This document shows, piece after piece, positions 59,169 through 60,841 of a stretch of DNA of 64,000 nt. Origin of the DNA: Pseudobutyrivibrio ruminis AD2017 (GTDB lineage Bacteria; Bacillota; Clostridia; Lachnospirales; Lachnospiraceae). The first letter of the stretch is position 1. The number at the start of each line of letters is the position of its first letter. Below the pieces are notes generated by a model. It was not told the DNA's origin. It made no database searches and worked only from the letters and a program-made list of their open reading frames with translations. The stretch lies in assembly GCF_000424305.1 (NCBI RefSeq), contig NZ_AUJQ01000005.1, positions 124,001 through 188,000 of the forward strand. Reading direction: 5' to 3'. Position numbers and translations under genes: made by a program.

Positions 59169-59295
59169 ATCTAGGGTTAATTTGCCAAATAGGGTTTACA
59201 AAATGGCGTTTTTTGTGTTATGGTTTCTATGGTATATTTCATATACAATTCGAACAATTAATTTCAAATTAAAGATTAAAGAAAGGAGAACAGCT

Positions 59296-59376
59296 ATGGA
59301 CAAATCAGACAGTCATGGGCGATTATGCTGCGACGAGGCATTTTCATACGGATATGTAGCTGTTCTTTTAGTATAA
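59296..59376 (+). CDS. 26-residue leader peptide upstream of mgtE
   Basis: AAAGGAG lies 8 nt before ATG 59296. The peptide begins MDKSDSHGRLCCDEAFSYGY and ends VAVLLV. It is rich in acidic and polar residues in its first 14 codons (D2, D5, D13, E14), with CC at 11-12. Codons 13-17 (59332-59345) form one arm of a 14-bp helix that competes with the downstream terminator. Its position and pairing fit a translated regulatory leader; in enteric mgtL, acidic nascent chains destabilise ribosomes when magnesium is low. Homology to mgtL is not claimed. Confidence 0.7.
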   Translation: MDKSDSHGRLCCDEAFSYGYVAVLLV

Positions 59377-59436
59377 AGAGCTTAGTTTTCATGTGCGCTA
59401 GAGAATGTCATCGTCTTAACATGACATTCTTTTTTT
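59332..59436 (+). promoter_or_regulatory. Attenuator of mgtE (mutually exclusive antiterminator/terminator)
   Basis: Terminator: GAATGTCAT (59403-59411) pairs with ATGACATTC (59421-59429), loop CGTCTTAAC, then seven T. Antiterminator: GACGAGGCATTTTC (59332-59345) pairs with GAGAATGTCATCGTC (59401-59415) as 14 pairs, two of them G-U, with one bulged A. The antiterminator's right arm contains the whole left arm of the terminator, so the two cannot coexist. Its left arm lies inside the leader ORF. Confidence 0.8.
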
Positions 59437-59452
59437 ATAGCAGGGTAAAAAC

Positions 59453-60841
59453 ATGGAAACAAAAGAGATTTTAGAGGATAACAAAATCCAAGAGATTATC
59501 GATTTGCTACGCTCTAATCTAGGTGCCGAGGCTTTAATGGAGGCTCTTGACGATTATCATGAGAATGATATTGCCGAAGCCTACGAGGACTTGGATACAG
59601 AGGATCGTAGAAGACTGTTCGGAATTCTAGGTGCCGAGCGTCTATCAGAAATTTTCCCTTATATTGAGGATGTAGGTGAATATTTAGCTGAAATTACACC
59701 AGAGCAGGCAGCTGATGTCTTAGAGAACATGGATGCTGATGATGCGGTTGATGCTTTGGAGGACATTGAAGACGAGGAACAAAGAGAGCAGTTAATTGCT
59801 TTGATGGATAAGGATGCATCTGCTGATGTACGTCTTATCAATTCCTATGATGAGGATGAAGTAGGTAGCATGATGACTACCAATTTCATCGTAATCAAGT
59901 CTAACTATACAGTAAAGCAGGCTATGCGTTCTTTGATTTCACAATCAAAGGATAATGATAATATCAACACCATTTACGTCGAAGACACAGAAAATAAATA
60001 CTATGGTGCTATCGAGCTTAGAGATTTAATTCTTGCTCGTGATTACACACCACTTGATGACATTATCAGTCACAGCTATCCTAGTGTTAAGGCTGATGCC
60101 CTTATTTCAGACACTATCGAAGATTTAAAGGACTACGCAGAGGATTCAATTCCAGTTCTTAATCCTAACGAAGAAATCATCGGTGTTATTACATCTCAGG
60201 ATATCATCGAAGCCGTTGATGATGAGATGGGTGAAGACTATGCTAAGTTGGCTGGTTTGACAGCAGAAGAGGATTTGAACGAAAGCTTACCTGAAAGTAT
60301 AAGAAAGCGTATTCCTTGGCTGTTGCTTCTTCTTGGACTTGGACTTGTAACCAGTTCAGTAATCGGCATTTTCGATAAGGTTGTAGCATCAGTAGCTATC
60401 GTTGTAGTGTTCCAGTCACTTATTCTTGATATGGCTGGTAACGTTGGAACACAGTCACTGGCTGTTACCATTCGAGTACTTATGGATGAGGAAATATCAG
60501 GAATCGAAAAGGCTAAATTCGTTCTTAAGGAAATGCGTGTTGGTGGAACAAACGGTTTCATTTTAGGTGTACTTGCCTTGTTTTTTGTAGCACTTTATTT
60601 GCATGCAATGAAGGGGTACATTTGGGTAGCCGCATTTAAGGTTTCAGGAATCGTAGGATTTTCACTTTTTATTGCTATGATAGTATCAAGCTTCATTGGA
60701 ACCATTATTCCAATTTTCTTCCACAAGATTAAAGTTGACCCAGCTGTAGCTTCTGGTCCACTTATCACTACTGTTAACGATTTAGTTGCAGTTATTACAT
60801 ATTACGGATTGGCTGGTTTATTGCTTGTAGGACATATTTAA
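59453..60841 (+). CDS. mgtE: Magnesium transporter MgtE
   Basis: A 462-residue magnesium channel. Residues about 1-130 are the acidic superhelical N domain (ENMDADDAVDALEDIEDEEQ), residues about 135-265 two CBS domains (VGSMMTTNFIVIKSNYTVKQAM; IIGVITSQDIIEAVDDEMGED), then the plug helix and five membrane helices (IPWLLLLLGLGLVTSSVIGIF; the selectivity region AGNVGTQSLAVTIR; and DPAVASGPLITTVNDLV). It takes up Mg2+ and closes when cytoplasmic Mg2+ binds the N/CBS domains. CAGGG lies before the ATG. It is preceded by a leader ORF and attenuator. Confidence 0.97.
   Translation: METKEILEDNKIQEIIDLLRSNLGAEALMEALDDYHENDIAEAYEDLDTEDRRRLFGILGAERLSEIFPYIEDVGEYLAEITPEQAADVLENMDADDAVDALEDIEDEEQREQLIALMDKDASADVRLINSYDEDEVGSMMTTNFIVIKSNYTVKQAMRSLISQSKDNDNINTIYVEDTENKYYGAIELRDLILARDYTPLDDIISHSYPSVKADALISDTIEDLKDYAEDSIPVLNPNEEIIGVITSQDIIEAVDDEMGEDYAKLAGLTAEEDLNESLPESIRKRIPWLLLLLGLGLVTSSVIGIFDKVVASVAIVVVFQSLILDMAGNVGTQSLAVTIRVLMDEEISGIEKAKFVLKEMRVGGTNGFILGVLALFFVALYLHAMKGYIWVAAFKVSGIVGFSLFIAMIVSSFIGTIIPIFFHKIKVDPAVASGPLITTVNDLVAVITYYGLAGLLLVGHI

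Follow-up and report, generated by a model that had tools for sequence, protein, structure and literature searches.

A conserved short leader ORF upstream of mgtE in Pseudobutyrivibrio ruminis and other Lachnospiraceae as a probable ribosome-controlled transcription attenuator

Ribosome-mediated attenuation is best known from amino-acid genes of Proteobacteria. Attenuators of the trp/his/ilv type, for example the ilvB uORF of Corynebacterium as outlined in the relevant passages of PMC11109978, combine a leader ORF with an antiterminator that competes with an intrinsic terminator. Translation of a short leader also governs Mg2+ transport in enterobacteria. According to the sections of PMC11282234 that deal with mgtL/mgtA, incomplete translation of an acidic leader turns on a Mg2+ importer; the terminator involved is Rho-dependent, the leader carries an EPDP motif, and the importer is ATP-dependent. 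The Salmonella mgtQ ORF, as described in the parts of PMC8092293 devoted to it, has eight codons, lies between mgtC and mgtB, and controls the translation of mgtB, with no terminator in that account. Its Asp2 and Glu5 lower its own translation and raise the expression of mgtB, for which they are needed (the same parts of PMC8092293). RNA elements have also been reported in front of mgtE itself. The mgtE gene of Bacillus subtilis has a Mg2+ riboswitch in front of it, as stated in a passage of PMC3641672, and an RNA motif upstream of mgtE in Thioalkalivibrio is presented in PMC11109978 as a riboswitch candidate, whose model includes the SD and the start codon of mgtE; the description given there mentions no uORF, and reports the motif only in Thioalkalivibrio. 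This motif is distinct from the leader considered here.

We analysed a window of 64,000 nt from Pseudobutyrivibrio ruminis AD2017 (NZ_AUJQ01000005.1, positions 124,001-188,000, forward strand), to which all coordinates refer, every feature lying on its plus strand. The mgtE gene (59453-60841) encodes a Mg2+ channel of 462 aa with Pfam MgtE_N, CBS and MgtE domains. An earlier note on this DNA, made from the sequence alone, had placed in front of this gene a 26-codon leader with a good ribosome site, a strong intrinsic terminator and a 14-bp antiterminator that begins within the leader, and all three are found there. The leader ORF (59296-59376), MDKSDSHGRLCCDEAFSYGYVAVLLV followed by a stop codon, has the Shine-Dalgarno sequence AAAGGAGA 5' of its ATG, and is marked by a recurring motif and synonymous third-base changes. 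The terminator has a stem of 10 uninterrupted base pairs (59402-59411/59421-59430), after which a T run extends to 59436; segment t (59421-59430) and the T run together occupy 59421-59436, and the fold of 59398-59440 has a z score of -4.9 versus shuffles. It is absent from the list produced by a generic terminator scan of the window, probably because its loop has 9 nt and the scan permits 3-8. Segment a (59332-59345), the antiterminator 5' arm within leader codons 13-17, pairs with segment b (59401-59415) through 14 pairs with one bulged A (59410). This pairing is present in the minimum-energy folds of 59325-59442 (-34.3 kcal/mol, z -3.4) and 59325-59418 (-33.5 kcal/mol, z -4.4), and is more stable than shuffles. 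Segment b is thus an arm common to both structures, the partner of a in the antiterminator and of t in the terminator, and in the window a:b pairing excludes the terminator. Further upstream, a candidate promoter was recognised by consensus match (TTTACA, 18 nt, TATGGT with an extended -10; 59195-59224). The region around it as a whole is no richer in such matches than shuffles; of the 28 genus loci, a regex search matched 18 that have TTTACA unchanged together with a suitable -10 and 2 that have a variant, and it matched nothing in 8.

We consider it probable that this region is a ribosome-controlled transcription attenuator of mgtE, read by the progress of the first ribosome relative to a CGA codon at position 9 of the leader, with low Mg2+ as the most probable signal. 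What is known here is ribosome-mediated attenuation; new are the peptide motif, the spacing anchored on a codon, the target and the host group. Unlike attenuators of the trp/his/ilv type, with which it shares the leader ORF and the competition between an antiterminator and an intrinsic terminator, the mgtE leader has no run of codons for a single amino acid, carries a peptide motif that recurs and a single rare codon, and precedes the gene of an ion channel. With mgtQ it shares the acidic nature of residues 2 and 5, the placement of a short ORF ahead of the gene for a Mg2+ transporter, and stem-loops that compete (passages of PMC8092293), and with mgtL/mgtA, on the proposed mechanism, an acidic leader whose incomplete translation turns on Mg2+ import (passages of PMC11282234). 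In the literature searched, which covers few subscription papers and preprints, the leader itself is undescribed, and mgtE does not appear in the main text of the attenuator survey PMC2965389.

Database searches gave no sign of a described RNA family. No Rfam family reached its cut-off in the window, where six matches at E values up to 10 were far below their cut-offs and were judged to be chance, and no family, M-box and T-box included, gave a gathering match in the window or in the loci of 20 relatives. The riboswitch of B. subtilis mgtE, which we take to be the M-box (ykoK, RF00380), is a ligand-binding RNA, unlike the mgtE leader, and was not found at this locus, in agreement with the earlier note, which had seen no M-box. 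Searched with stricter filters, RF00380 was absent from 75 of 77 genomes, the one of the window included; of the other two, G117 has it on a different contig and G333 at a distance of over 1 Mb from the leader-type mgtE. Neither Pfam nor NCBIfam has a family for the leader peptide, two Pfam matches below the cut-off having been dismissed.

The leader is widespread, and it is tied to mgtE. Within the genus, MgtE (75-100% identity) and the leader pattern were each found in 28 of 29 genomes, the window's own included; the remaining genome, G020, which is 83% complete, yielded neither a leader nor an mgtE match. Outside the genus we examined the DNA upstream of 76 mgtE loci (47 + 29), one of which (L029) is from another family of the order; two further mgtE matches (in G091 and G347) were cut or partial and were left out. 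The strict form M-[D/E]-x-x-D-[S/G]-x-x-[R/Q], with an ATG or GTG start and a ribosome site, occurs at 30 of these 76 loci, against a mean of 0.05 and a maximum of 1 in 20 sets of shuffled upstream regions. A looser rule combined with reading added nine leaders, to a total of 39, and these nine are less sure, because about 8 of 76 shuffled loci would also satisfy that rule on its own. The other 37 loci have no accepted leader, two of them (L091 and L095) having less than 400 bp of upstream DNA; L076 was removed as a false match. A scan for the leader-ORF pattern that used no information on mgtE, and that covered 84,980 species with a single genome apiece, returned 68 sites with 66 distinct ORFs, of which 11 sites were already in the other sets. 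At 64 of the 68 sites mgtE follows, although at L163 only the C-terminal half of MgtE matches, and at the remaining four less than 230 bp of fetched DNA follows the start codon, so that they are not assessable. The leader is therefore followed by mgtE at 64 of 64 assessable sites, which ties it to this gene and bears out the target named in the earlier note.

The record titles of the scan sites name Lachnospiraceae, its genera, or only Clostridia/Eubacteriales, Clostridiales or Eubacterium, with four exceptions labelled Ruminococcus (R. bromii 5AMG; L168, L171 and L181) or Saccharofermentans (L158). On three of these four contigs (L158, L168 and L181) both the leader and mgtE are present, and at L171 the leader; either horizontal transfer or mislabelled contigs would account for them. 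In a tandem pair of mgtE genes (L110 and L111, on G166:C53), a leader is recognised only before the first copy. The exact pattern MDKxDSHG, searched in 299 genomes of the family, was found in two genus members and at one site judged to be unrelated (L032), which had suggested an element confined to the genus; this idea was overturned by the upstream regions of mgtE in other genera. A second site in genome G021 (MDKRDRHG; L136/L041) lies within a long open frame, has no ribosome site, and was taken as chance.

The leaders vary in the manner of a coding sequence. For the genus all mgtE loci that had been found were included, and residues D2, D5, S6, H7 and G8 are invariant among these 28, with synonymous changes at codons 2, 4, 7 and 8. 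Codons were counted in the family in 36 alignable leaders, which had been chosen for D/E at position 2 and D/G/S at position 5, so that these residues are partly given by the choice: Asp2 is encoded by GAC in 21 and GAT in 13, Asp5 by GAT in 17 and GAC in 16, and Gly8 by all four of its codons, and three of these leaders start with GTG. The combination of D/E2 with D5 is found in 33 of the 39 accepted leaders from outside the genus, whose acceptance itself leaned on these residues. An SD-like sequence precedes 132 of 135 leaders, an SD having been required for acceptance in the family set. As in known attenuators, a short ORF, probably translated in view of its conservation, its ribosome site and its synonymous changes, stands upstream of the structural gene, and comparison of the relatives supports coding selection on it, with Asp2 and Asp5 as the residues that recur across genera. 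Acidic residues near the N-terminus are also a feature of the mgtL/mgtQ type of leader. The earlier note had described the first 14 codons as rich in Asp/Glu; this is true of the window (D2, D5, D13 and E14), but across genera codons 13-14 are not kept, the residues at the positions of Asp13-Glu14 being, for example, Asn-Asp or Cys-Gly. As judged from the relatives, these two codons are antiterminator arm, conserved as RNA and not as peptide. A conserved N-terminus is also what would be seen if the leader peptide acted in trans, for instance on MgtE, and the RNA features were secondary. Such an action is extremely unlikely: only about the first ten residues recur, whereas the ORFs extend up to 52 codons (median 29) and differ in their C-termini.

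A constraint at the level of single codons concerns codon 9 and its neighbourhood, which the earlier note had not remarked upon. Among the 67 leaders derived from mgtE loci, 61 have Arg at codons 8-10, and in 59 of these 61 the codon is CGA, as in the window (Arg9, 59320-59322, the proposed waiting point). Later Arg codons in the same leader ORFs are CGA in 5 of 55 cases (Fisher p 2e-24), and CGA makes up 7.3% of the Arg codons in the long ORFs of the window and 7.4% in the loci of relatives. The six leaders without Arg at codons 8-10 have Gln9 (L027 and L081), Asn (L071), or CGA at codon 7 (L099, L105 and L132). Serine codons are biased too: in the family set AGT is used at Ser6 in 28 of 32 and at Ser10 in 16 of 20 leaders, and later Ser codons are AGT in 15 of 81. 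AGT amounts to some 17% of the Ser codons in the family leader loci, yet is near-constant at codons 6 and 10. Given the footprint size generally used for such placements, the front edge of a ribosome waiting for CGA would lie at about 59332, the first base of segment a, this position depending on the assumed size. In a his-leader assay, as reported in the part of PMC4046918 concerned, decoding is slower at CGA than at CGU and CGC. Constraint on single codons, at CGA and at the AGT of Ser6 and Ser10, is typical of codon-based attenuators, and a translational signal other than Mg2+ (charged Arg or Ser tRNA, tRNA-Arg inosine, slow translation or an antibiotic) might then be read, and mgtE would belong to a broader response to stress. 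We think this unlikely, since a single Arg codon is the rule and not a run, D2, D5 and G8 are kept through synonymous change, mgtE follows at all assessable sites, and no connection between this gene and the supply of Arg is known.

The competition between antiterminator and terminator was followed into the relatives with a triple test, in which a segment b located 3' of the stop codon pairs contiguously with a segment t adjoining a T run, and also with a segment a in the ORF; this test replaced an automatic hairpin finder, which mixed real terminators with unrelated folds. A b:t helix was present by this criterion in 74 of 118 distinct leaders and absent from 44. A triple score of at least 6 anywhere was reached by 43 of the 118, where 15.6 are expected from shuffled ORFs, so that 31 of the 74 remain below 6. 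The position of a is more telling: with a score of at least 6, segment a starts at ORF nt 33-44 in 37 leaders (1.83 expected), and all 16 of the loci with a score of at least 8 (0.67 expected) have it there (0.07 expected). Examples of a/b/t are ACGATGGA/TCCATCGT/ACGATGGA-ATTTTT in L078, TGCGGTGGC/GCCGCCGCA/TGTGGCGGT-TTTT in L074, and ATAATACGGT/GCCGTATTGT/ACAATGCGGT-TTTTTT in L082. A three-way competition, in which ORF codons 12-17 or t can pair with b, thus recurs in relatives with other sequences and at a fixed place in the ORF, an arm common to antiterminator and terminator being found in a part of them. In L099, where CGA is 6 nt nearer the start codon, a is likewise 6 nt nearer, so that the 12-13 nt separating the two may be the quantity that matters; L099 is the one clear shifted case. 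CGA and a are placed in the same way in L105, but its score of 5.3 is at chance level (p 0.47). An arm near CGA had been suggested by eye in L066 and L132; the best match for a in L132 lies elsewhere and L066 has no b:t helix in the triple test, so that neither was confirmed by the script, and they were not counted. After the T run of the terminator, family loci such as L078, L099, L105 and L132 carry TTTTTATGCCCTTTTTT-like DNA.

Alignment of relatives for the leader, the arms and compensatory changes was the check that the earlier note had called for. Our genus alignment A1 has 21 rows, namely 20 of the 28 genus rows and L062; it omits L014, L025 and L027, which are diverged or have insertions after the ORF, and L017, L019, L021, L023 and L024, which have no a/b, so that its pair counts describe rows chosen for having the arms. 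In these rows 93.2% of the a:b cells are paired and 10 are changed on both sides, a result reached by 12 of 500 shuffles; for the terminator helix b:t, 89.5% of the cells are paired and 8 are changed on both sides (1 of 500 shuffles). Both arms of the antiterminator are conserved with compensatory changes in these rows, so that the sequence result named in the earlier note as refuting did not arise; covariation within the genus is modest. By a simple motif test, the five species L017, L019, L021, L023 and L024 keep the leader motif and start codon and lack a and b together, and L018 and L027 keep a, with a b that fails the test. In those five species codons 12-17 and b have been replaced together; they may use another structure, of which none was seen by eye, or may have lost control by termination.

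Two further helices accompany this switch. The first, P1, was absent from the earlier note; it joins the leader's start site to its 3' part through 13 bp (59284-59296 x 59357-59369), the 5' arm comprising the Shine-Dalgarno sequence, the spacer and the A of the start codon. In A1, 97.4% of its cells are paired, and one A-U pair is replaced by G-C in 8 of 21 rows, perhaps through a single event. Among 91 leaders less than 85% identical to each other, the mean duplex energy of P1 is -17.4 kcal/mol with a leader's own partner, versus -11.95 with swapped and -11.2 with shuffled partners (own versus swapped, Wilcoxon p 7e-16), and the own pairing ranks in the best 5% of swaps in 42 and in the best 10% in 65 of the 91. 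The trp attenuator has a protector structure, and P1, which involves the leader's own start, can act likewise. The second, P2, is a probable hairpin on the evidence of folding and the genus alignment, in which 59358-59368 pairs alternatively with 59375-59387; it fits within the antiterminator and is the weakest of the four helices in A1 (84.4% of cells paired, 2 changed on both sides). Several of the genus loci L013-L027 have an mgtE without an evident Shine-Dalgarno sequence by eye; its start codon there follows GAAACU, which is complementary to AGUUUC just after the P2 region and hints at a translational layer on mgtE. P1 and the antiterminator can coexist only as a pseudoknot. This geometry, the strong alternative helices and some conservation at the nucleotide level are what a ligand-binding RNA would show, be it a new riboswitch for Mg2+ or for another ligand, in which the ORF would be incidental. 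Such an RNA is very unlikely in view of the synonymous substitutions, the GTG starts, the SD-like sequence before nearly all leaders, and the lack of a gathering Rfam match in the window or the 20 relatives' loci.

How a ribosome on the leader would affect the switch was modelled by folding 25 nonredundant loci with the ribosome footprint masked. When only RNA up to b was folded, a:b formed in 25 of 25 loci with the P site one codon before CGA, in 15 at CGA, in 3 one codon after it and in none beyond, a boundary that shifts by about one codon if a shorter or longer front edge is assumed; as the loci had been selected for a clear triple with a starting at nt 28-46, which narrows where the boundary can fall, this is consistency and not independent proof. 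When full-length RNA was folded to equilibrium with the P site placed one codon short of CGA, the terminator prevailed in 16 of 25 and a:b in 9, compared with the terminator in 24 of 25 one codon after CGA. Since equilibrium mostly favours the terminator, a:b would need to form before it and endure. For the window's own full-length RNA, the fold is the antiterminator with the P site at codon 8 and the terminator with the P site at codon 9. The direction of control suggested in the earlier note is therefore reproduced in the folding models, a ribosome on codons 13-17 giving the terminator and one stopped earlier making the antiterminator possible. A ribosome at the leader stop codon does not mask a in the window model, so that the OFF state needs a ribosome on codons 11-17, or a steric block, at the time when b appears. 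The model thus requires coupling of transcription and translation, and tight coupling is doubted for B. subtilis.

Under the attenuator reading that we favour, a ribosome would start on the emerging leader before P1 hides the start site. If it is at or before CGA (codon 9) when b is made, a would be free, a:b would form first, the terminator would be blocked and mgtE transcribed; if it has moved on over codons 11-17, a would be masked, b:t would form and transcription would stop. P1 would limit repeated initiation, and in many species would favour the terminator when the leader is free of ribosomes. Asp2 and Asp5 may make early elongation fragile, the rare CGA codon would set where the ribosome waits or falls off, and low Mg2+ would be the most probable signal. 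Mg2+ is a plausible signal by analogy, to which the target gene, the acidic residues and the mgtQ precedent point; the acidic positions 2 and 5 common to Salmonella mgtQ and the mgtE leader are perhaps a case of convergence.

How low Mg2+ would be sensed can be pictured in more than one way. The acidic residues may destabilise the ribosome early when Mg2+ is low, leaving bare RNA that folds into the antiterminator with no defined pause. We regard this as quite possible, though short of probable. It draws on the recurrence of D2 and D5 in the leaders, on Asp2 and Glu5 of mgtQ (passages of PMC8092293), on MgtL, where drop-off at EPDP opens mgtA (passages of PMC11282234), and on the ribosome-free full-length fold of the window, which is the antiterminator. 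Yet it leaves the near-constant CGA and the fixed place of a unexplained, and the acidic repeats described in those passages of PMC11282234 are adjacent or one apart, often with Pro, whereas here they are two apart and lack Pro. In crude folding of RNA that ends at b, a:b appears at 15 of 25 loci if no ribosome is present and at all 25 if one stands directly before CGA, which in these models leans towards a pause over drop-off; in full-length folds the terminator prevails at 18 of 25 loci ribosome-free and at 16 of 25 with a ribosome before CGA, a difference that hardly separates the two. The features added here to those of the earlier note, namely P1, CGA and the spacing from CGA to a, are no less compatible with a ribosome that pauses near codon 9 than with drop-off. 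Our more specific and more tentative proposal, which we hold to be somewhat doubtful, is that M-D-x-x-D-S-x-G followed by CGA forms a nascent-chain gauge of Mg2+: where Mg2+ falls short, the ribosome would pause when Gly8 occupies the P site and CGA the A site.

Lachnospiraceae rank among the major bacteria of the gut and the rumen, and a conserved leader of this kind would explain how many of them, lacking an M-box, adjust the uptake of Mg2+ to their requirements. Ribosome-mediated attenuation would then reach to an ion channel in Clostridia, and the leader would offer a sharply testable case of the ribosome as an ion sensor, with one codon, one spacing and one switch. If the nascent chain does gauge Mg2+, the leader would be a Gram-positive Mg2+-responsive arrest peptide used in place of the M-box in Lachnospiraceae and perhaps in some neighbouring Clostridia, in which a single pause, with the antiterminator arm at the front edge of the ribosome, would set the transcription of mgtE.
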